This document shows, one piece after another, positions 474 to 12,323 of a stretch of 42,336 nt of DNA. Source of the DNA: Candidatus Eremiobacteraceae bacterium (GTDB lineage Bacteria > Vulcanimicrobiota > Vulcanimicrobiia > Eremiobacterales > Eremiobacteraceae); NCBI GenBank assembly GCA_035314825.1, contig DATFYX010000057.1, positions 1 through 42,336 on the forward strand, written 5' to 3'. Numbering within the stretch: the first letter of the stretch is position 1; each line of letters begins with the position of its first letter. A program made the position numbers and the translations under genes. A model generated the notes under the pieces. The model saw only the letters and a program-made list of their open reading frames with translations. It ran no database searches and was not told the origin of the DNA.

Positions 474-2522
474 ATGCGCACGAATGCCATGCAGCGCGTG
501 GCTCTTGCTGTTGTCATCATCGGGGCGCTGGCGTCGTTCATCGCGGCCGCGGTGCGCTTGCGCTACGAGCATGCCAGCAAGTATGTCGAGATCTCGATGG
601 ATCAGCAGGATCTCGCCGACTTCACGAGCGCGTACGGCTACGATCAGAACGGCCTGTTGCGGCTCATGAAGGCCGCGGGCTTGACCTCGCTCGCCATCTA
701 CGAAGAGCTCGGCAACCGCATCAACCTGGGCGACCACGCCTATGCGCAGACGGGCCAGCAGATCATCGACGCCGCGCGCACGTCGCCGCTGACCGACGCG
801 CTGCTCGCGTCGCTCGTGCGTTCGAACGCGCTCGAATCCGGCGCGGTGTACATCCTCGTGTTCGACCGGCCCACGCTCGACCGCTACGTCACCGTGCTGC
901 GCAACCAGCTCGAGCCGCGCAACGTCATCGTCCTGCGGCAGACGATGCCGGCGCTGCTCGAGGTGCGCACGCAGATCGACTACTTCAACAATCTGGGACT
1001 GGGGATACCGCAGGAGAACATCGATCAGGCGCACGCGCTCGGGCTGCTGATCGATCCGCGCGTCCAGAACAACGAACGGCTCGATGCCGATCACATCGAC
1101 GTCGTCTTCCGCCAGATGCTGGCCGGCGACACGATCGGCACGGTCATCTTCTTCGGCCTGCGCAACGAGGTGCTCGGCTTCCCCTACAACCTCGACGCGA
1201 CCGCGGACGCATTCCGGCGCTATGACGCGCAGTATCACGCGTTGTTCGGCAACGTCGAGGCGTACGATCCGACGCAGTTCCAAAAAGGCGGCGACACGCT
1301 CGGCCGCAAGATCCCAGGCTTGACGGTGCGCGTGCAGGCGATCTCGCGGCTCGAGCTCGACAAGCTCGATCTTGACACGGTGATCGCGCGTTACATCCTT
1401 GGCGTGCGGGAGCGCAACATCCGCGTCGTCTACCTGCGGCCGTTCCCGCACCTCGCGCAAGTGCATGAAAAGGACGGCACGTACAAGACGCTCACCGCGC
1501 AGCAGACGAACCTCGAGATGCTGCATCGCCTGCGCGACGGGTTGGTCGCGAACGGTTTCTATCTCGGCCGCCCGTCGACGCTGGTCGACTTCGGCGGCCT
1601 GTGGCTCGACGTGCTCTACTGCCTTGCCGCGCTCGGCGTGACGGCAGGCTTCTTGCTGCTGCTCGACATCTATGGCTGGTCGCGCGATTGGTTCGCTTGG
1701 ACGTGCTACGTGGTGACGCTCGCCGCATTCTGGGGGCTGCGCGCCGTCGGGCACGACGACATCACGCGGCGCGTCTGGGCGCTTGGCGGCGCTCTGACCT
1801 TCGCGGTGCTTGCGGGCACGACGATGGCGCGCTTCTTCAAAGGTCCGGCGCCGCCGGGCGACACCTGGTCGGCGAACGCGGCAGACGGATTGCGCTGCAC
1901 GCTGACCGCCGTCGGCGTGGCCCTGCTGGGCTGCCTATTCGTCGTGGGCCTGCTCGCGCAGACCACGTTCATGCTCGAGGTCCAACAGTTCTTCGGCGTC
2001 AAAGCGCTGCTGGTCGTGCCGCCGATCGCGCTGCTGATCTTGTATGCCTTCGCGCCGCTCTTCGGCAATGCGGTCAAGCCCGCCCAGGCGGGCGAAGCGC
2101 CGGTCAAACTGTGGCAACTGCTGGTGGGATTCGCGCTCGCGGGCGGCGCGGTGCTCCTGCTGATGCGCTCGGGCAATCAGCCCGATATCGGCGTGTCGGA
2201 TTTCGAAACGCACCTGCGAGGATTCCTCACCACATTGCTGGGGGCGCGCCCGCGTTTCAAGGAGTTCTTGCTTGGCTTTCCGGCGTTGATGCTGTTGCCG
2301 GCGCTCCTGCCCGCGCATCGCCGCGCGATCGGCTGGATCATCATCATCGCTGCAGGTATCGGGCTCTCGGACGTGCTCGACACTTTCTCGCATATCCACA
2401 CGCCGCTCATCATCAGCGTGCTGCGCCTGTTCAACGGACTGGTGGTCGGCGCGCTCATCGGCATCGTGCTGCAGTGGCTGTACCGGCGTCTGCGCACCGC
2501 GCTCCCCGCGCCCGGACCATGA
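474..2522 (+). CDS. DUF5693 family multi-pass membrane protein
   Basis: A 682-residue protein with one N-terminal membrane segment (about residues 6-24), a large extracytoplasmic domain (about 25-370), and a C-terminal block of about eight hydrophobic helices starting near residue 375. This architecture, directly upstream of csaB, matches the DUF5693 family, which is repeatedly found next to csaB and is presumed to act in secondary cell-wall polymer modification or export. The biochemical role is not established. ATG 474 is preceded by a weak AGAAG element; a second in-frame ATG lies at 486. It ends 10 bp before csaB, which implies co-transcription. I infer that it works with CsaB at the membrane on a pyruvylated wall polymer. 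Confidence 0.8.
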   Translation: MRTNAMQRVALAVVIIGALASFIAAAVRLRYEHASKYVEISMDQQDLADFTSAYGYDQNGLLRLMKAAGLTSLAIYEELGNRINLGDHAYAQTGQQIIDAARTSPLTDALLASLVRSNALESGAVYILVFDRPTLDRYVTVLRNQLEPRNVIVLRQTMPALLEVRTQIDYFNNLGLGIPQENIDQAHALGLLIDPRVQNNERLDADHIDVVFRQMLAGDTIGTVIFFGLRNEVLGFPYNLDATADAFRRYDAQYHALFGNVEAYDPTQFQKGGDTLGRKIPGLTVRVQAISRLELDKLDLDTVIARYILGVRERNIRVVYLRPFPHLAQVHEKDGTYKTLTAQQTNLEMLHRLRDGLVANGFYLGRPSTLVDFGGLWLDVLYCLAALGVTAGFLLLLDIYGWSRDWFAWTCYVVTLAAFWGLRAVGHDDITRRVWALGGALTFAVLAGTTMARFFKGPAPPGDTWSANAADGLRCTLTAVGVALLGCLFVVGLLAQTTFMLEVQQFFGVKALLVVPPIALLILYAFAPLFGNAVKPAQAGEAPVKLWQLLVGFALAGGAVLLLMRSGNQPDIGVSDFETHLRGFLTTLLGARPRFKEFLLGFPALMLLPALLPAHRRAIGWIIIIAAGIGLSDVLDTFSHIHTPLIISVLRLFNGLVVGALIGIVLQWLYRRLRTALPAPGP

Positions 2523-2532
2523 TGAGGCGCGC

Positions 2533-3648
2533 ATGAGCGACCGGCCGGCGCGCCTGCTGCTCTCCGGCTACTACGGCTTCGCCAATTTCGGGGACGAGGC
2601 GATTCTCGACGTCATGGTCGAGCAATGGCGCCGCCGCCGCCCGATGGACGAGCTCGTCGTCTTGTCCGAGAGCCCGGAGCAGACGGCCCGCACGTACGGC
2701 GTGCAAGCGGTCCCGCGCATGGCGTGGCGCGCCGTCTCCGATGCGGTGCGCGCCGCCGACGTCACCGTCAGCGGCGGCGGCGGCCTGCTGCAAAGCGCTA
2801 CCAGTTTGCGCAGCCTGCTGTATTACGCCAGCGTCATCCGCGAAGCAAAACGTGCCGGGCGCAAGGCTGCGATCTTCGCGCAAGGCATCGGACCGCTCAA
2901 CTATTTCGGCCGAGAAGTCGTCAAGCGTTCGTGTGCGCGCGTCGATCTTGCGTGCGTCCGCGACGAGCTCAGCCAAGGAACTCTCAAAGCGTTGCTTCCG
3001 GGCGTCGAGGTGCGCTTGAGCGCCGATCCGGTCTTCTTGGCGGATGCCGCAGAGTCGCCGCAAGCGCGCGCCGCGTTGGTGCGCGAGGGATTGCGCGACG
3101 ACCTGCGCGACGTCGTCGCCGTCGTCGTGCGGCGCGGTCCGGCCCTCGACCAGGTCACGGAGCGGCTCGTCTCGGTGTGCGACCGGCTGGCCTCGCGCCA
3201 CGGCGCGCACGTCGTCTTCGTGCCCTTGCAGCCCCCGCATGACGCCGAGGCCGCGATCACGGTGATCCGGCGCTGCAAGTCCGCGCCGGCGCTGCTCACC
3301 GGCGGCTACGATCTGGCGACCATGACGGCGTTGCTGTCGCGCTGCTCCGCAGTCATCTCGATGCGTTTGCATGCCTTGATCCTTGCGGCCCGCCTGGCGG
3401 TGCCGTTCCTCGCGGTGCCGTACGACCCGAAGATCGAAGCGCTGACCGCGGGACTGGCGTATCCGATGCCGCCGCTCACGCGCGAGAGCCTGGCCGAGGA
3501 GCTGACGGATCAATGGTGGTCGCGCAGGCCCGCATTGCGCGAGCATCTGCGCGCGCGGGTGCCGGGAATGCAGGTCCGCGCGATGGCGGCGTTCGACTGG
3601 CTGCAGGCGCTGGTCGAACGCGAAGGCGCGCCGCTGTCCGAGAGATAA
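2533..3648 (+). CDS. csaB: Polysaccharide pyruvyl transferase CsaB
   Basis: A 371-residue protein matching the CsaB branch of the polysaccharide pyruvyl transferase family. It transfers pyruvate ketal groups from phosphoenolpyruvate onto a cell-wall polysaccharide, creating the ligand for SLH domains. The sequence shows the N-terminal SGYYGFANFGDEAIL motif, a glycine-rich SGGGGLLQ segment near residues 79-86, and the C-terminal SMRLHALILAARLAVPF signature typical of the fold. ATG 2533 follows a GAGG element. It lies just after the DUF5693 gene, a recurrent pair. In diderm Terrabacteria, CsaB products are linked to tethering of outer-membrane SLH proteins to the wall; I infer the same here. 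No SLH protein lies within the window. Confidence 0.92.
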   Translation: MSDRPARLLLSGYYGFANFGDEAILDVMVEQWRRRRPMDELVVLSESPEQTARTYGVQAVPRMAWRAVSDAVRAADVTVSGGGGLLQSATSLRSLLYYASVIREAKRAGRKAAIFAQGIGPLNYFGREVVKRSCARVDLACVRDELSQGTLKALLPGVEVRLSADPVFLADAAESPQARAALVREGLRDDLRDVVAVVVRRGPALDQVTERLVSVCDRLASRHGAHVVFVPLQPPHDAEAAITVIRRCKSAPALLTGGYDLATMTALLSRCSAVISMRLHALILAARLAVPFLAVPYDPKIEALTAGLAYPMPPLTRESLAEELTDQWWSRRPALREHLRARVPGMQVRAMAAFDWLQALVEREGAPLSER

Positions 3649-3661
3649 ACTCGCAGGTACC

Positions 3662-4810
3662 ATGCTCGTGCGCTCAAGCTGGCGAGTCGGGAGCATCGCC
3701 GGCATCGACATCGCCATCCATCCAAGCTGGATCGTGATCTATGCGTTGTCCGCATTTGCATCGATGAGGTTCGCGCGCCTTATCGCAGACTCGCACAACA
3801 TGCCGATCCCCACCAGCAACGCCGTCATTCTGGGAATGGTAGCCGCCTTGGTCCTGTTCGTCTGCGTCGTGCTGCATGAGGTATCGCATGCCGTCGTGGC
3901 CCGCCGTGTGGGCGTACCGATCGGCAACATCACGCTGTTCTTGTTCGGCGGCGTGGCCAGTATCTTGCGTGAGCCGGGAACCCCGTCCGACGAAGTCAAG
4001 ATCGCAGGTGCTGGGCCGTTAGCCAGCCTCATGCTGGCAGCTGTCTTCGGCGCGCTCGCGGAGGCGACTGGTCTCGCACACTGGTCCTGGGTCTACACGC
4101 TATGCCTGATCCTCGCCGTGACCAATCTCGTGCTCGCGATCTTCAATCTATTGCCGGCTTTCCCGAGCGACGGCGGCCGCTTGCTGCGCGCCGCGTTATG
4201 GCGATTCACGGGCAGCCAGGCCCGTGCGACCGGCATGGCCAGCACGGTCAGCGCCGTTGTGGCGGCGCTGTTGATCGTGGCCGGCGCGTTCATGGCGTTC
4301 AATAAGATGTGGAACGGCATCTGGCTCGTGCTGATCGCGCTGTTCTTGCTTCAGGCCGCCGTCGCCAGCGGCAAACAGGCGCGCATAAGCCTTGCGCTTG
4401 AGCGCATGTCCGTCGACGATTGCATGGCGCGCACGCTCATCCCCGTGGCTGCGGACGCGCCGCTCACATCGTTTGTCGCCGAAGTATCGGACGGGAATCG
4501 GACCGGTTATCCGGTGGTCGATAACGGCGCATTCGTCGGTCTGGTGAATCCGCGCGACACCGGCAGCGTGCCGCCGGGTCTGTGGCCGCATACGCCGGTG
4601 CGTGCGATCATGACCCCAGCCGCGAAGATGCCCGCCCTCAGCGTGGACGCGCCGGCCAGCGATGCGCTCGCCGCGCTGGCCAAGAGCGGCGCCCGCAGCT
4701 TGCCGGTGTTCGAGAACGGCGAACTGACCGGCGTGGTGTCCGAGGACATCATCTTCTCGGCGCTGCGCGATCGAACGACGGCGGCGGCCACGGCGGCGAC
4801 AGCGACGTGA
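3662..4810 (+). CDS. Site-2 protease (M50 family) with C-terminal CBS pair
   Basis: A 382-residue intramembrane zinc metalloprotease. The catalytic HEVSH (HEXXH) is at residues 72-76 inside a hydrophobic helix, and the third zinc ligand is expected in the LLPAFPSDGGR motif (Asp about 170), which corresponds to the family's NPDG/LDGGR element. About six membrane helices span residues 18-230. Two CBS-type repeats follow (about 240-375), ending EDIIFSAL, and probably sense nucleotides. This architecture is common among SpoIVFB-like and Rip3-like proteases. Substrates cannot be read from sequence. It lies 13 bp after csaB, and its stop overlaps the GTG start of ileS, so translation is probably coupled. 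The last residues are a low-complexity Ala/Thr tail. Confidence 0.9.
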   Translation: MLVRSSWRVGSIAGIDIAIHPSWIVIYALSAFASMRFARLIADSHNMPIPTSNAVILGMVAALVLFVCVVLHEVSHAVVARRVGVPIGNITLFLFGGVASILREPGTPSDEVKIAGAGPLASLMLAAVFGALAEATGLAHWSWVYTLCLILAVTNLVLAIFNLLPAFPSDGGRLLRAALWRFTGSQARATGMASTVSAVVAALLIVAGAFMAFNKMWNGIWLVLIALFLLQAAVASGKQARISLALERMSVDDCMARTLIPVAADAPLTSFVAEVSDGNRTGYPVVDNGAFVGLVNPRDTGSVPPGLWPHTPVRAIMTPAAKMPALSVDAPASDALAALAKSGARSLPVFENGELTGVVSEDIIFSALRDRTTAAATAATAT

Positions 4811-7800
4811 TCGAGCCGATCGGAGACAAGCTGTTCCCCACCCCCGGCATGCTGCCCGACGCGCCGGCGCGCGAACTTGGGGTGTTGGAGTTCTGGCGCG
4901 ATGCGAAGATCTTCGAACGCTCGCTGGAGCAGACCAAGCGCGGCGCACCTTATGTGATGTTCGAAGGTCCGCCGACGGCCAACGGCAAGCCCGGCGTCCA
5001 TCACGTGCTGGCGCGCGCCTTCAAGGACTTGTATCCGCGCTTTTGGACCATGCGCGGGCATTTCGCCCTGCGCAAGGCGGGTTGGGATACGCACGGGTTG
5101 CCGGTCGAGCATCAGGTCGAAAAAGAGATCGGCATCCTGGACAAGAGCCGGCTCGAGGCCGAGGTCGGCATCGCCGAGTTCAACCGGCGCTGTCGCGAAA
5201 GCGTATATCGCTACGTCAGCGACTGGAACAGCATGACCATGCGCATGGCGTACTGGACCGATCTCGAACACCCGTATGTCACGCTCGACAACAGCTACAT
5301 CGAAACGGTGTGGTGGCTGCTCAAGCAGCTGTGGGATCGCGGACTCATCCAACAGGACTATAAGTCCGTGCCATACGACCCGCGCATCGGCGCGACGTTA
5401 TCGGACGCGGAGGTCGCGCTCGGCTATCGCGAGACCGACGACCCGTCGGTGTACGTGCGTTTCCGGCTCAAGGACGATCCGACGACCTCGTTCCTCGCGT
5501 GGACGACGACTCCGTGGACGCTGCCTGCGAACATGGCGCTCGCCGTGCATCCCGACGTCACCTATGCGGTCGTAGAGCGGGAAGGCGAAAAGCTCATCGT
5601 CGCCGAGCCGCTGATCTCAAAAGTGTTCGGTGACGATGAAGCGGCGGTCGTCCGGCGCGTGAGCGGCCGCGAGCTTGCCGGCACGCGCTACGCGCCGCCG
5701 TACGACTATTGCGTCAGCGAGAAGGACCGCTACTACGTCATCCCCGCGCCGTTCGTGACCACCGAGGACGGGACCGGCATCGTGCACGTCGCCCCGGCGT
5801 ACGGCCCGGACGATCTGGCGCTGGGCAAATCGTGCGATCTCCCTATCTATTACAGCGTCGACTACACGGGGCACGTCGTGTCCGAGGTGGCGGTCGCAGC
5901 CGGCGCGTTCTTCAAGGACGCGGATCCGCCGATCATCGCCGACCTCAAGCAGCGCGGCTTGATGTTCCGTTCCGGCACGATCCGGCATACGTATCCGTTC
6001 GGCTGGCGCACCGACGACCCGCTGCTCTATATCGCCAAGACCGCGTGGTTCATCCGCACGACCGAGTTCAAGACGCAGCTGCTCGCGAACAACGACGTCA
6101 TCAACTGGGTGCCGGAGAACGTCAAGCAGGGCCGTTTCGGCAACTGGCTGGAGAACAACGTCGACTGGGCGCTGTCGCGCGAGCGCTTCTGGGGCACGCC
6201 GCTGCCGTTGTGGACGGACGGCTCGGACCACATCTGCATCGGTTCCGTCAAAGAGCTCTCGGATCGCGCCGGGCGCGACCTCTCGGAGCTCGATCTGCAT
6301 CGGCCGGCGATCGACGAGATCACATTCATGCACGAGGGGCGCGAATACCGGCGCGTGCCCGAAGTGATCGACGCATGGTTCGATTCCGGCTCGATGCCGT
6401 ACGCGCAGTGGCATTATCCTTTCGAGAACGGGGAGCAGTTCGCGCGCTTCTATCCTGCCGATTTCATCTGCGAGGCGGTCGATCAGACGCGCGGCTGGTT
6501 CTACAGCTTGCACGCCATCGGCACCATGCTCAACGCCTTGGATCCGCAACGCTTCGCGGCGCCGGCCTATCGCAACGTCGTCTGTCTCGGCCATGTCGTG
6601 GACGAGCGCGGCGAGAAGATGAGCAAGAGCAAAGGCAATGTGCTCGATCCATGGGAGGTGTTCGATGCGCTCGGCGCAGACGCGCTGCGCTGGTACTTCT
6701 TCGCGTCGAGCCCGCCGGGCGTGGCCAAGCGCGCCTCGGTTGAGCTGGTCCGCGAAGGCACGCACGCCTTGTTCAACACACTATGGAGCACGGTCAACTT
6801 CTTCACGCTATACGCGAACGATGACGCGATCGGCATCCCCGCCGATGTGCCGCTGCGCCAACGGCCGGACATGGACCGCTGGGCGGCGGCGCGGCTGACC
6901 GAGCTGACCGCGGATGTGACCCGGCGCCTCGAGCTGTACGATGCGCAAGGCGCGGCGCGCGCGATCGAGAGCTTCGTGGACGAGCTGTCCAACTGGTACG
7001 TGCGCCTGTCGCGCGACCGCTTCTGGGCGTCCGGCACAGGCGCCGACAAAGCGGCCGCGTATCGCACGCTGTACGAGTCGCTCTACGCGATCGGCCTGCT
7101 TGTGGCGCCGTTCGCGCCCATGCTGGCGGAATCGGTGTATCAGATGCTCGTGCGATCGCTCGACAAGCAGGCGCCGGAGAGCGTGCATCTGGTGCCCTGG
7201 CCGCAGGCGCAGCAAGAACGAGTCGACGCGGCGCTGGTGGCGGCGATGCGCGTCGCCCAGGAGACGGTGGACCTCGGGCGCCAGGTGCGTGCCGCGGCCA
7301 AGATCAAGACCCGCCAGCCGCTGCCGATCGCGTACGTGCGTCCGCGCTCGGCCGCCGACGGTGCCGCGCTGACGCGCTTCCGAGCTCTCGTGCTCGAAGA
7401 GCTCAACGTCAAGGAACTGCAAGTCGTCGGGCTGGACGCTGCCTTCATCGAATATGCCATCCGTCCGAACCTGCCGCGCTTGGGTCCGCGCTATGGCAAC
7501 AAGCTGGCCGCGCTGCGCAAAGCGCTCGCCACCGTCGATGCGCGCGAGATCGCCATAGCGGCCGCTGAAGGCCGCACCTTCGACGTCTCGGCTAGCGGCG
7601 AGACCTTTTCGCTCGGGCCTGACGATGTGCTCGTCGACAGCAAGTCGGCCCGCGGTCTGGCGTCAGCCGAATCCAACGGCATGCTCGTCGCGCTGGACAC
7701 GCGCGTGGACGAGAATCTCATGAAAGAAGGGCTCGCGCGCGAGGTCGTGCGCGCGGTGCAGGACGCGCGCAAGCACGCCGCGCTGCACATCAGCGATCGG

Positions 7801-7944
7801 ATCTCCGTCACCATCGCGGCTGACGCGGATTACGAGGCGGCGGTCGACGCCTGGCGCGAGTACATCATGGAGCAGACATTGGCCGTCAAGGTCGAGGTGG
7901 TCCGCGCAGAGTCGCTCGCGGTCACCGTGCGCAAGGTGAGCTGA
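4807..7944 (+). CDS. ileS: Isoleucyl-tRNA synthetase, type 2 (GXHH variant)
   Basis: A 1045-residue class I aminoacyl-tRNA synthetase that charges tRNA-Ile. GTG 4807 overlaps the stop of the upstream protease gene; the frame stays open further upstream, but that part is only the shadow of the protease. ATG 4849 is a later alternative. Key features are the PPTANGKPGVHH segment (residues about 55-66), the GWDTHGLPVE motif, the CP1 editing domain with TTPWTLPAN, and KMSKS at about 604-608. Length, and a C-terminus with no evident zinc finger, fit the eukaryote-like type 2 (IleRS2) group, which is generally mupirocin-tolerant. The HIGH signature is inverted: the position that reads H-x-G-H in most homologues reads G-V-H-H here. 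It ends four bases before the convergent lgt stop. Confidence 0.96.
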   Translation: MIEPIGDKLFPTPGMLPDAPARELGVLEFWRDAKIFERSLEQTKRGAPYVMFEGPPTANGKPGVHHVLARAFKDLYPRFWTMRGHFALRKAGWDTHGLPVEHQVEKEIGILDKSRLEAEVGIAEFNRRCRESVYRYVSDWNSMTMRMAYWTDLEHPYVTLDNSYIETVWWLLKQLWDRGLIQQDYKSVPYDPRIGATLSDAEVALGYRETDDPSVYVRFRLKDDPTTSFLAWTTTPWTLPANMALAVHPDVTYAVVEREGEKLIVAEPLISKVFGDDEAAVVRRVSGRELAGTRYAPPYDYCVSEKDRYYVIPAPFVTTEDGTGIVHVAPAYGPDDLALGKSCDLPIYYSVDYTGHVVSEVAVAAGAFFKDADPPIIADLKQRGLMFRSGTIRHTYPFGWRTDDPLLYIAKTAWFIRTTEFKTQLLANNDVINWVPENVKQGRFGNWLENNVDWALSRERFWGTPLPLWTDGSDHICIGSVKELSDRAGRDLSELDLHRPAIDEITFMHEGREYRRVPEVIDAWFDSGSMPYAQWHYPFENGEQFARFYPADFICEAVDQTRGWFYSLHAIGTMLNALDPQRFAAPAYRNVVCLGHVVDERGEKMSKSKGNVLDPWEVFDALGADALRWYFFASSPPGVAKRASVELVREGTHALFNTLWSTVNFFTLYANDDAIGIPADVPLRQRPDMDRWAAARLTELTADVTRRLELYDAQGAARAIESFVDELSNWYVRLSRDRFWASGTGADKAAAYRTLYESLYAIGLLVAPFAPMLAESVYQMLVRSLDKQAPESVHLVPWPQAQQERVDAALVAAMRVAQETVDLGRQVRAAAKIKTRQPLPIAYVRPRSAADGAALTRFRALVLEELNVKELQVVGLDAAFIEYAIRPNLPRLGPRYGNKLAALRKALATVDAREIAIAAAEGRTFDVSASGETFSLGPDDVLVDSKSARGLASAESNGMLVALDTRVDENLMKEGLAREVVRAVQDARKHAALHISDRISVTIAADADYEAAVDAWREYIMEQTLAVKVEVVRAESLAVTVRKVS

Positions 7945-7948
7945 GGGA

Positions 7949-8839
7949 CTACGCCTTCGACGCCGGCTTGCCGGCGGCCGCGGGCTTTTTGACCGCGGCT
8001 GCGGTCGGCATCGGCTGCTGCTGCCCGAGCCAGATCATCACGACGCCCAGGATCACCATCGCAATGGTCAGATACTGCGCGCCCGTCAAGCCGAACAGAA
8101 TGATGCCCGGCTCGCGATAGAATTCGACGATCGTGCGCACCAGTCCGTAGCCGGCGATGAACGACCAAAAGACCGCACCCGGCCGGAAGAAGTCGGGCCG
8201 CGAGCGGATGAACCACACCAGCGGCAGCACGACGAGCACCATGCCGATGCCTTCGAACAGCTGCGAGGGGTAGCGGTAGCCAGGGACTCCGGGGAACAGG
8301 ATGCCGATCGGCGAGCCGGTCACGCGGCCTGGCAACTCGTCGTTGATGAAGTTCGTGCAGCGAGTCAGGAAGATCGCGACCGGCAGCCACAGCACCGCCT
8401 CGTCGAGCACTTTCCAGATGGACAGTTTGATATGGTTCACGTAGATGGCCGCGCCCGCGATACCGCCGATGAGTCCGCCGTGGAACGCCATGCCGCCGGT
8501 CCAGATCGCGATGATCTGCAGCGGGTTGGCGAGATAATAATCCAGCGAATGGCCGCCGGCTGAAAGCGGCGTGAGCATATCGGCGACGAGGAAGAAGAGC
8601 CGGCCGCCGATGATGATGCCGATCATCGTATAGACGATGAATTCCTGCGCCTGTTCGACGGTCAGTCCCGTGCGCGCGCGGCTGCTCTTGCTCTGCAACT
8701 GGAGGTAGACGAGCAGGGCGCCGATAACATACGACAGCCCGTACCAGCGGATCCCGAAATCCCCGTGGATATGGATCGCGACCGGATCGATGTGCGGATA
8801 CGAGAACCAGTGACCGGCATCGAGAAGAACGGCGAGCAA
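7949..8839 (-). CDS. lgt: Prolipoprotein diacylglyceryl transferase
   Basis: A 296-residue inner-membrane enzyme with about seven helices that transfers diacylglycerol from phosphatidylglycerol to the lipobox cysteine of pre-lipoproteins. The family hallmarks are the HGGLIGG motif (His120) and the signature around Arg160-Asn163 (TRCTNFINDELPGRV). The usual GRxGN glycines are replaced by Thr, while the essential Arg and Asn are kept. The start is a TTG, chosen because a perfect GGAGGTGA Shine-Dalgarno sequence lies just upstream (8851-8844). It is convergent with ileS and divergent from ccdA across only 47 bp. With lspA nearby and the PrsA-like lipoprotein at 25.4-26.3 kb, it shows that the cell matures lipoproteins. 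The C-terminus is an Ala/Lys-rich tail. Confidence 0.95.
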   Translation of the reverse strand: MLAVLLDAGHWFSYPHIDPVAIHIHGDFGIRWYGLSYVIGALLVYLQLQSKSSRARTGLTVEQAQEFIVYTMIGIIIGGRLFFLVADMLTPLSAGGHSLDYYLANPLQIIAIWTGGMAFHGGLIGGIAGAAIYVNHIKLSIWKVLDEAVLWLPVAIFLTRCTNFINDELPGRVTGSPIGILFPGVPGYRYPSQLFEGIGMVLVVLPLVWFIRSRPDFFRPGAVFWSFIAGYGLVRTIVEFYREPGIILFGLTGAQYLTIAMVILGVVMIWLGQQQPMPTAAAVKKPAAAGKPASKA

Positions 8840-9696: not shown

Positions 9697-9709
9697 AACC
9701 GTCAGCGAC

Positions 9710-10228
9710 ATGTCGTTCGTGTTCTTCTTGGTGGCAGCGCTCGTCGTCGGGCTCGACCAACTCACCAAACACGCCATCGCGACGCACTTCTTGCCCGATG
9801 AGAGCCGCATCGTCATACCGCACGTGCTGTGGCTCACCTACGTGCAGAACCACCGCGGTGCGTTCGGGATGTTCGGCTCGCACCCGCTGCTCTTGGCCGG
9901 CTTCGCCTTGGCGGTCGTGTTGGTGTTCTATTACTGGTACCGCCAGGAAGGCGCGACGCTGCTCACCCACACGGCGTTCGGCCTGATACTCGGCGGCGCC
10001 GTCGGGAATATCCTCGATCGCGTGCGCCTCGGCTACGTCATCGACTTCATCGATTTCAAGACGACCGGCTATCCGGTTTTCAACGTAGCCGATTCATCGA
10101 TCACCATCGGCGTGGCCTTGCTGCTGCTGCGCATCCTGGTGCACGAACGCAGACAGCAAGCCGCCGCCGCGCCGGCCGCGCAAGCCGTGTCCCCGCCGCT
10201 GTCCGAACGCAGTCCAGCGGAGCCGTGA
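9710..10228 (+). CDS. lspA: Signal peptidase II (lipoprotein signal peptidase)
   Basis: A 172-residue, four-helix inner-membrane aspartyl protease that removes the signal peptide of diacylglyceryl-modified lipoproteins. Catalytic aspartates are Asp112 in GNILDRVRLGYVIDFID and Asp128 in FNVADSS. The early VGLDQLTKH motif and the NHRGAFG segment also fit the family. I chose ATG 9710 because the protein then begins directly with the first hydrophobic helix; the frame is open further upstream, but there it overlaps ccdA. The Ala/Pro-rich tail (about 145-172) is longer than usual. The stop overlaps the GTG start of the pseudouridine synthase. It acts directly after Lgt, encoded one gene away on the other strand. 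Confidence 0.95.
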   Translation: MSFVFFLVAALVVGLDQLTKHAIATHFLPDESRIVIPHVLWLTYVQNHRGAFGMFGSHPLLLAGFALAVVLVFYYWYRQEGATLLTHTAFGLILGGAVGNILDRVRLGYVIDFIDFKTTGYPVFNVADSSITIGVALLLLRILVHERRQQAAAAPAAQAVSPPLSERSPAEP

Positions 10229-11199
10229 GCCAGACCGTCGCGTTCACGGCGACGGACACCGAGGCGGGCGGGCGCTTGGACGCGGTGCTGGCGACACGCA
10301 CGCAGCGCTCGCGCGCCGAGATGTCCGCGCTGATCCGATCCGGTATGGTGCGCATCGACGGCCGTCCGGCCAAACCGGCGCATCACCTCAAGCCGGGCGA
10401 ACGCGTCGAAGCGGTCGTGCCCGATCGCGGCGTCCGCGAACCCGGACCAGAGAACATCCCGCTCGCCATCCTGTACGACGACGCCGATATCGCGGTCGTC
10501 GACAAGCCCGCCGGCATGGCGACGCATCCCGCGCCGGGCAGCCGGTCGGGAACGCTCGTCAACGCGCTGCTCGCGCGCATGGGCTCGCTGCCCGCGCTCG
10601 GCGACTCGGCGCGCCCCGGCATCGTGCATCGCCTCGACAAAGACACCTCGGGTTTGCTCGTCGTCGCGAAAAGCGAGCGCGCGATGCGCGCGCTGTCCGC
10701 TGCGATCGCCGCGCACCACGTCGAACGCGAATACGACGCCGTCGTCTGGGGCGTGCCGCCGGCGGACAGCGGCTCGATCGACGCGCCGCTCGCGCGTGAT
10801 CCCGCGTCGCGCACACGCTTCGCGGTACGGCACGAAGGCAAACCCGCGGTCACGCATTATCGGACGGTCGAGACGTACGAGGTCGGGCCGCAGCGCTCTG
10901 CTCGGTCGAGCAAACTCGACCGCTCGAAGGCAGCTCGGGCGGCGCTGTTGCGCGTGACGCTGGAGACGGGGCGCACGCATCAGATCCGCGTCCACTGCGC
11001 GGCGATCGGCCACCCGATTGTCGGCGATCCGATCTACGGGGCAGGCTATCCCGGCCTGGGGATCGAGCGCCAGGCGCTGCATGCCGCGAGGTTGCGCTTC
11101 GTGCACCCCGTGAGCGGCGCGCCGTTGTCGTTCGATGCGCCGTGGCCCGACGATTTCGCGGCGCTTGTCGCGCGGATCCGCACGGGCGGCGCGCCATGA
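10225..11199 (+). CDS. rluD: RluA/RluD-family 23S rRNA pseudouridine synthase
   Basis: A 324-residue enzyme converting uridines in 23S rRNA to pseudouridine. An N-terminal S4 RNA-binding domain (about 15-65) is followed by the catalytic domain, with HRLDKDTSG (catalytic Asp138) and the late GRTHQIRVH motif. Start GTG 10225 overlaps the lspA stop (GTGA). RluD is the commonest member next to lspA, as in Firmicutes, but the exact target site cannot be told from sequence. Unusual: between the VETYEV strand and the LLRVTLETG strand there is an extra Arg/Ser/Lys-rich stretch (about residues 222-238) encoded by a perfect inverted repeat, which looks like a palindromic element read in frame. The stop overlaps the tgt start (ATGA). 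Confidence 0.93.
   Translation: MSQTVAFTATDTEAGGRLDAVLATRTQRSRAEMSALIRSGMVRIDGRPAKPAHHLKPGERVEAVVPDRGVREPGPENIPLAILYDDADIAVVDKPAGMATHPAPGSRSGTLVNALLARMGSLPALGDSARPGIVHRLDKDTSGLLVVAKSERAMRALSAAIAAHHVEREYDAVVWGVPPADSGSIDAPLARDPASRTRFAVRHEGKPAVTHYRTVETYEVGPQRSARSSKLDRSKAARAALLRVTLETGRTHQIRVHCAAIGHPIVGDPIYGAGYPGLGIERQALHAARLRFVHPVSGAPLSFDAPWPDDFAALVARIRTGGAP
10903..10922. repeat. Perfect 8-bp inverted repeat inside the pseudouridine synthase gene
   Basis: The arms CGGTCGAG and CTCGACCG are separated by CAAA. They encode part of an extra RSSKLDRS-like stretch that standard RluD proteins lack, so this may be a small palindromic insertion that kept the reading frame. I saw no second copy in the window. 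Confidence 0.6.
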
Positions 11200-12323
11200 A
11201 CGTCAGCGTGGGCGCCTTCACGCTCGAGGCCACCGACGGCGCCGCCCGAGCCGGCACGCTGCGCACGGCGCACGGCGATGTGCAGACGCCTATCTTCATG
11301 CCCGTCGGCACGCAAGCCAGCGTCAAGGGCCTGACGCCCGACGAGCTGGTGGCCAGCGGCGCACACATCGTGCTGGCCAACGCCTATCATCTGTATCTGC
11401 GACCCGGCGCTGAGGTGATCGAACGCGCCGGCGGACTGCACGCGTTCATGAGCTGGCCCGGTGCGATCCTCACCGACAGCGGCGGCTTTCAGGTGTTCTC
11501 GCTCGCGACGCTCGGGTCGGTCGACGACGAAGGCTATCACTTCGCGTCGCATCTCGACGGCACGCGCCACACCTTCACGCCGGAGTCGGTGGTGCGGCTG
11601 CAAGAGCGCCTCGGCAGCGACATCGCGATGGTGCTTGACGACGTCGCGCCGGCCGGCGTGGACGAGTCGCGCGCGCGCGAAGCGGCGCAGCGGACACTGC
11701 GCTGGGCCGAGCGCGCCAAACGCGCGCGCACCCGCGACGATCAGCTGACCTTCGCCATCGTCCAAGGCTCGACGTTCGAGGCGTTGCGCCGCGAGAACGC
11801 GCGCGCGCTGGCGGCGCTCGATTTTCCAGGCTATGCGATCGGCGGGCTGTGGGTCGGCGAAGCCAAGAGCCGCGGCCTCGAGATGGTCGAGATCGCCGCG
11901 GCGCAGCTGCCGGCCGGCAAGCCGCGCTACGTCATGGGGGTCGGCACGCCTGAAGATATGCTCGCGTGCATCGGCCGCGGCGTGGACATGTTCGACTGCG
12001 TGTATCCGACGCGCAGCGCCCGGCACGCGCTCGCGCTCACGGCCGGCGGCCGACTGAACCTGCGCAACGCCCGCTATACGACTGACTTCGGGCCGCTTGA
12101 TCCGGCCTGCTCGTGCCCGACCTGCAAACGCTTCTCGCGCGCATATCTCGCGCATTGCTTCCGCGCGAACGAATCGCTCGCGCCGCGGCTGGTGAGCCTG
12201 CACAACGTGTGGATGTTGGAGCAGTTGAGCGCGGCGGCGCGCGCGGCGATCATCGACGGCCGTTTTTCGAACTGGCGGACCGGCGTGATGGAGTCGCTGG
12301 GCGCGAAGCCGGCCGAAGGATAA
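11196..12323 (+). CDS. tgt: tRNA-guanine(34) transglycosylase
   Basis: A 375-residue enzyme that swaps guanine for the queuosine precursor preQ1 at the wobble position of tRNAs with GUN anticodons. Visible landmarks are LTDSGGFQVFSL (general acid/base Asp94), the FAIVQGS segment, GGLWVGE, the nucleophile region MFDCVYPTR, and the zinc-binding CSCPTCKRFSRAYLAH. Length is normal for the bacterial enzyme. ATG 11196 overlaps the stop of the upstream gene by ATGA; the frame is open upstream, but only as a shadow. It lies 12 bp before yggS. No queuosine biosynthesis genes or queA are visible here. Confidence 0.96.
   Translation: MNVSVGAFTLEATDGAARAGTLRTAHGDVQTPIFMPVGTQASVKGLTPDELVASGAHIVLANAYHLYLRPGAEVIERAGGLHAFMSWPGAILTDSGGFQVFSLATLGSVDDEGYHFASHLDGTRHTFTPESVVRLQERLGSDIAMVLDDVAPAGVDESRAREAAQRTLRWAERAKRARTRDDQLTFAIVQGSTFEALRRENARALAALDFPGYAIGGLWVGEAKSRGLEMVEIAAAQLPAGKPRYVMGVGTPEDMLACIGRGVDMFDCVYPTRSARHALALTAGGRLNLRNARYTTDFGPLDPACSCPTCKRFSRAYLAHCFRANESLAPRLVSLHNVWMLEQLSAAARAAIIDGRFSNWRTGVMESLGAKPAEG

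Follow-up and report, generated by a model that had tools for sequence, protein, structure and literature searches.

The window analysed here is the whole 42,336-nucleotide stretch of contig DATFYX010000057.1, from an assembly of 89 contigs that is 97.25% complete; the family of this genome, within the phylum Candidatus Eremiobacterota (NCBI name now Vulcanimicrobiota), is labelled f1 below. It carries a gene for a type 2 isoleucyl-tRNA synthetase (ileS2, product IleRS2), set in a gene order, DUF5693-csaB-M50-ileS-lgt/lspA-rluD-tgt, that is common to f1 and its sister families. The features are as follows:

474..2522, forward strand: DUF5693 protein, conserved upstream neighbour (Pfam, synteny)
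2533..3648, forward strand: polysaccharide pyruvyl transferase (CsaB-like), upstream of ileS in both families (Pfam, synteny)
3662..4810, forward strand: M50 metalloprotease with CBS domain, directly upstream of ileS2; also precedes ileS1 in several sister-family genomes (Pfam, synteny)
4807..7944, forward strand: ileS2, isoleucyl-tRNA synthetase type 2, 1045 aa (open reading frame, TIGR00392, Pfam)
4993..5004, forward strand: GVHH where class I enzymes have the HXGH (HIGH) signature, residues 63-66 (translation, phmmer alignment)
5503..5814, forward strand: CP1 editing-domain signatures WTTTPWTLP (Thr233-235) and GIVHVAPAYGPDD (His327, Asp336), intact (alignment with 1ile)
6412..6426, forward strand: HYPFE motif, residues 536-540 (translation; motif from PMC4861432)
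6616..6630, forward strand: KMSKS signature, intact, residues 604-608 (translation)
7949..8839, reverse strand: Lgt, prolipoprotein diacylglyceryl transferase, running towards ileS2 with a gap of 4 bp (Pfam, synteny)
9704..10228, forward strand: LspA, signal peptidase II; ileS also lies near lspA in E. coli and in ileS1-bearing families (Pfam, synteny)
10228..12323, forward strand: RluD-type pseudouridine synthase and Tgt; both families keep them close to ileS (Pfam, synteny)

The ileS2 reading frame begins with a GTG codon at 4807, overlapping the stop of the M50 gene (GTGA), and is open over its whole length to a stop ending at 7944. Codons GGC GTC CAT CAC encode the tetrapeptide in the context EGPPTANGKP-GVHH-VLARAF. 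In phmmer alignments it falls on the HVGH of the IleRS2 of Thermus thermophilus (1ile) and Priestia megaterium, and it matches residue for residue the engineered GVHH of the P. megaterium mutant 8c8w. With glycine at position 1 and histidine at positions 3 and 4, it belongs to the G/AXHH class (G or A at position 1, His at 3 and 4). An earlier note on this DNA had read G-V-H-H after PPTANGKP, at the HXGH site of an otherwise full-length IleRS2 with intact KMSKS; both the alignments with HXGH- and GXHH-bearing enzymes and the complete frame bear this out.

The product is an isoleucine--tRNA ligase (TIGR00392, 909.6 bits against a curated equivalog cut-off of 621.4) of type 2 rather than type 1. 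In phmmer searches of the PDB it scores 882 and 871 bits to the IleRS2 of T. thermophilus and P. megaterium, but only 365 and 341 bits to the IleRS1 structures (P. megaterium and Sa, respectively); E. coli IleRS1 gives 282 bits. It contains the HYPFE motif, which has been reported to tell eukaryote-like IleRS2 apart (PMC4861432). Pfam recognises the domains tRNA-synt_1, Anticodon_1 and a C-terminal DUF5915, the anticodon-binding domain being intact, and Trp140, the counterpart of PmIleRS2 Trp130, is conserved. Thr233-235, His327 and Asp336 are presumably the editing residues of the CP1 domain. An AlphaFold model (mean pLDDT 53.9, from 11 rows) was set aside.

The earlier note had advised looking for a second ileS1 in the genome. 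A TIGR00392 search across the assembly found a single IleRS and no second ileS, the remaining matches being sub-threshold fragments of related synthetases. Likewise, no match with an IleRS1 signature was found in the genomes of the same family, GVHH being present in 14/14 f1 genomes under six different DNA spellings. This fixation, together with the open frame, rules out a frame error, a sequencing error or chance as its source, and reflects purifying selection on the protein. Judged from sequence, ileS2 is thus the sole housekeeping IleRS of its bacterium, and of the GXHH type. An assembly 97% complete, in 89 contigs, leaves some room for a true IleRS encoded outside the assembled sequence, the window enzyme then being inactive or a paralogue with a side function. 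However, the 13 related genomes, most of them more than 90% complete, likewise lack ileS1, and the catalytic, editing and tRNA-binding parts of the window enzyme are conserved and intact; we consider this reading extremely improbable and close to refuted. In one genome of the same genus (G002) two pieces of GXHH IleRS2 were found (C63:16-858 and C118:70-2559), one of them cut by a contig end, representing either a strain mixture or a duplication.

The swapped motif is ordinary among the relatives of this enzyme. Glycine at position 1 with histidine at position 3 occurs in 99 of 103 aligned IleRS2 rows (the other four show HXGH; every row has histidine at position 4). Of the 80 IleRS2 in named genomes that lie nearest to the window enzyme, 77 carry GXHH. 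These shares are no census, since the set was selected by likeness to a GXHH query. These 80 relatives span many phyla, including Chloroflexota, Armatimonadota, Actinomycetota, Deinococcota, Caldisericota, Cloacimonadota, Balneolota, Ignavibacteria and Myxococcota, with one Hyphomonadaceae record. A broad distribution has also been published, with G/AXHH in 86 of 163 bacterial IleRS2 (Brkic 2023, PMC10485003). The suggestion of the earlier note that this occurrence widens the known range of the motif therefore holds in a modest sense, by the addition of an Eremiobacterota member, but is otherwise overstated.

The biochemistry of the swap has been published. It raises the mupirocin Ki about 200- to 1000-fold; GVHH introduced into two IleRS2 raised it about 200- to 430-fold, and the natural ALHH enzyme of Deinococcus radiodurans (DrIleRS2) has a Ki of 6.6 mM with a normal kcat, G/AXHH IleRS2 retaining normal efficiency (Brkic 2023, PMC10485003). 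In these enzymes the third-position His stands in for the first, catalytic His of HXGH, the HIGH helix of IleRS2 is displaced so that ATP is still accommodated, and resistance is ascribed to a modelled steric clash of the third-position His with mupirocin (PMC10485003). The link that the earlier note drew between the type 2 swap and very strong resistance is thus on record, with little loss of activity. Given that the window enzyme has fold family, motif and Trp140 in common with them, the published mechanism is the best inference for it. The third-position His of GVHH would provide the catalytic imidazole, the shifted HIGH helix would hold it without disturbing ATP, and in the mupirocin-bound state the same His would clash with the drug, giving a millimolar Ki. 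By analogy, mupirocin hyper-resistance of the window IleRS2 is likely, and isoleucine charging, and probably the whole cell, would thereby be insensitive to mupirocin-like IleRS inhibitors.

Comparison with known systems places the enzyme more precisely. DrIleRS2 and the IleRS2 of Streptomyces griseus (SgIleRS2) resemble it in the swap of HIGH positions 1 and 3, the intact KMSKS and the housekeeping role. However, these are measured natural enzymes distant from the window IleRS2, which is known from sequence alone, comes from an uncultured Eremiobacterota and occupies the place that natively belongs to ileS1 in its class. Mutant 8c8w carries the identical GVHH at the same place within a full-length match (871 bits), but there it was engineered from HVGH, whereas in the window it is natural. 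The plasmid-borne MupA and MupB are also of the IleRS2 type, the window protein scoring 763 and 794 bits with their profiles (NF000257 and NF000258), far under the 1900-bit cut-offs; unlike them, the window gene is chromosomal and encodes the sole IleRS, with no acquired second copy.

A different view of the motif deserves consideration, in which GXHH is a neutral or catalytically tuned signature that came down with its IleRS2 clade, resistance is a side effect and the spread of the motif owes nothing to inhibitors. Its standing as the majority state in near IleRS2 across many phyla and the normal efficiency of the published swap-bearing enzymes would fit such a view, as would the fact that Pfam recognised no resistance or producer gene around ileS2 within the window. 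We regard it as a serious contender that falls somewhat short of an even chance: the published 200- to 1000-fold change in Ki speaks against it, as do the repeated origin of the swap, at least twice within IleRS2 (PMC10485003), and its entry into Eremiobacterota at least twice (below). Full-length ketosynthase frames number just two in the assembly (469 and 490 aa); a mupirocin-type polyketide cluster is therefore not apparent and, as far as the assembly goes, the lineage is a non-producer, as had been assumed.

The neighbourhood of ileS2 adds a result that the earlier note did not claim. In the genomes looked at from f2 and f3, sister families within the same class, no IleRS other than IleRS1 was found, and its gene lies in the layout DUF5693 - csaB - (M50) - ileS1, then tgt/rluD/lspA/ccdA/lgt, then yggS - divIVA. 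The tgt-to-lgt block is inverted in many f2 genomes, while f3 has the order of the window; some f2 genomes carry the downstream half at another place. In f1 the same neighbour genes flank ileS2 instead of ileS1. The f2 and f3 enzymes share chromosomal slot and cellular role with the window IleRS2 but are of the other type: compared with E. coli IleRS1 they score about 600-710 bits, compared with the window protein about 250-310, and their signatures (HMGH, HMGT or HMGG with AMHKS, PMSKS or AMSKS) differ from GVHH with KMSKS. Since the more distant families f4-f10 keep ileS1 adjoining lspA, as in E. coli, the ileS-lspA neighbourhood is ancestral. In f1, GVHH ileS2 thus occupies the slot where close relatives keep the ordinary drug-sensitive IleRS1 type, a probable family-wide replacement in place accompanied by the absence of ileS1. 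The GC and GC3 of ileS2 equal those of the neighbouring genes; with no compositional trace, any transfer would be old. One f2 genome (G027, 96% complete) has no IleRS above the family cut-off, probably owing to an assembly gap.

Phylogenetic analysis, by quick tree searches, recovers the f1 IleRS2 as one clade (SH-aLRT 100), beside which stands L057 ('bacterium bin.39'), distant although the nearest row. The GXHH IleRS2 of the Eremiobacterota families f13-f16 group with a Thermaceae record, apart from f1. A single clade of Eremiobacterota GXHH IleRS2 is rejected (lnL difference 151, p-AU 9e-52; AU test on the quick tree under LG+G4), and with it vertical descent of GXHH within the phylum; the swap was therefore acquired there on at least two occasions. 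Two acquisitions, that of f1 by replacement in the native slot, would be the simplest reading; that ileS2 spreads horizontally, perhaps driven by resistance, has been proposed earlier (PMC4861432). In an alternative scenario the ancestor of the class had both ileS1 and ileS2, f1 lost the former and its sisters the latter, and nothing was transferred into f1. Two genomes of the phylum (G067 and G069) do bear both types, and duplication followed by loss could mimic replacement. Nevertheless, this scenario requires one more move to bring ileS2 into ileS1's own slot, and f1 IleRS2 is not sister to the other Eremiobacterota IleRS2. We therefore judge it unlikely, the identity of the slot favouring replacement. 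Overall, we think it highly probable that the sole IleRS of this bacterium is a GXHH enzyme working by the published mechanism, insensitive to mupirocin-like inhibitors, and that the ancestor of f1 received a foreign ileS2, which took over the chromosomal slot of the native ileS1.

Altered IleRS signatures are found elsewhere in the phylum. In f4-f10, IleRS1 carries HXGQ with TMHKS, SMHKS or AMHKS (L217, L218, L220, L221, L223, L209, L210, L222 and L224); L217 scores 906 bits to P. megaterium IleRS1, and in near-complete f4 genomes the HXGQ enzyme is the only IleRS. The same change of the fourth His to Gln occurs in laboratory-selected mupirocin-resistant IleRS1 (PMC10485003), and outside the phylum we saw HXGQ once (G950). 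Within f2, HMGT (L025, L031, L238-L241, L244-L248) and HMGG (L226, L228, L229, L243) both occur, and a tree of 26 rows shows seven changes of the fourth HIGH residue. Position 4 thus varies in IleRS1, the statement of Brkic et al. holding for positions 1 and 3. HMGT was dropped as a novel signature of the sister families: at the IleRS1-type site, HXGT (ACA/ACG codons only) occurs in 58/398 Bacillota and 10/398 Pseudomonadota genomes, and in none of 43 Armatimonadota genomes. Two very divergent IleRS2 have DMHKS instead of KMSKS, namely L259, alongside an HLGQ IleRS1 in G067, and L225, apart from which no other IleRS was found in G070. Besides an HAGH/KMSKS IleRS2 (L208), G069 has an IleRS1-like frame of 938 aa adjoining lspA (L260, contig C112), with LPVH in place of HIGH and without KMSKS, which looks like the native ileS1 after loss of its active site following the arrival of ileS2.

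The swapped motif, its mechanism and its broad spread were already published, and the known mechanism is unchanged by the window enzyme; what is new is this further member, the finding that it is fixed across an Eremiobacterota family that has no other IleRS, and the probable displacement of IleRS1 in place. The GVHH observation is thus real and ordinary in kind, with an informative displacement attached. An entire environmental family relies for its IleRS on one class I enzyme whose most conserved motif is swapped, which makes f1 a clear example of a drug target replaced at its native locus. The sister families, where IleRS1 fills that slot, allow paired comparisons to test what drives such swaps. 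It is possible, though doubtful, that the displacement in f1 by a foreign GXHH IleRS2, the independent gain in f13-f16 and the repeated alteration of retained IleRS1 (HXGQ, HXGT, HXGG; TMHKS, AMHKS, PMSKS) together are the mark that prolonged exposure to IleRS inhibitors in nature has left on Eremiobacterota.
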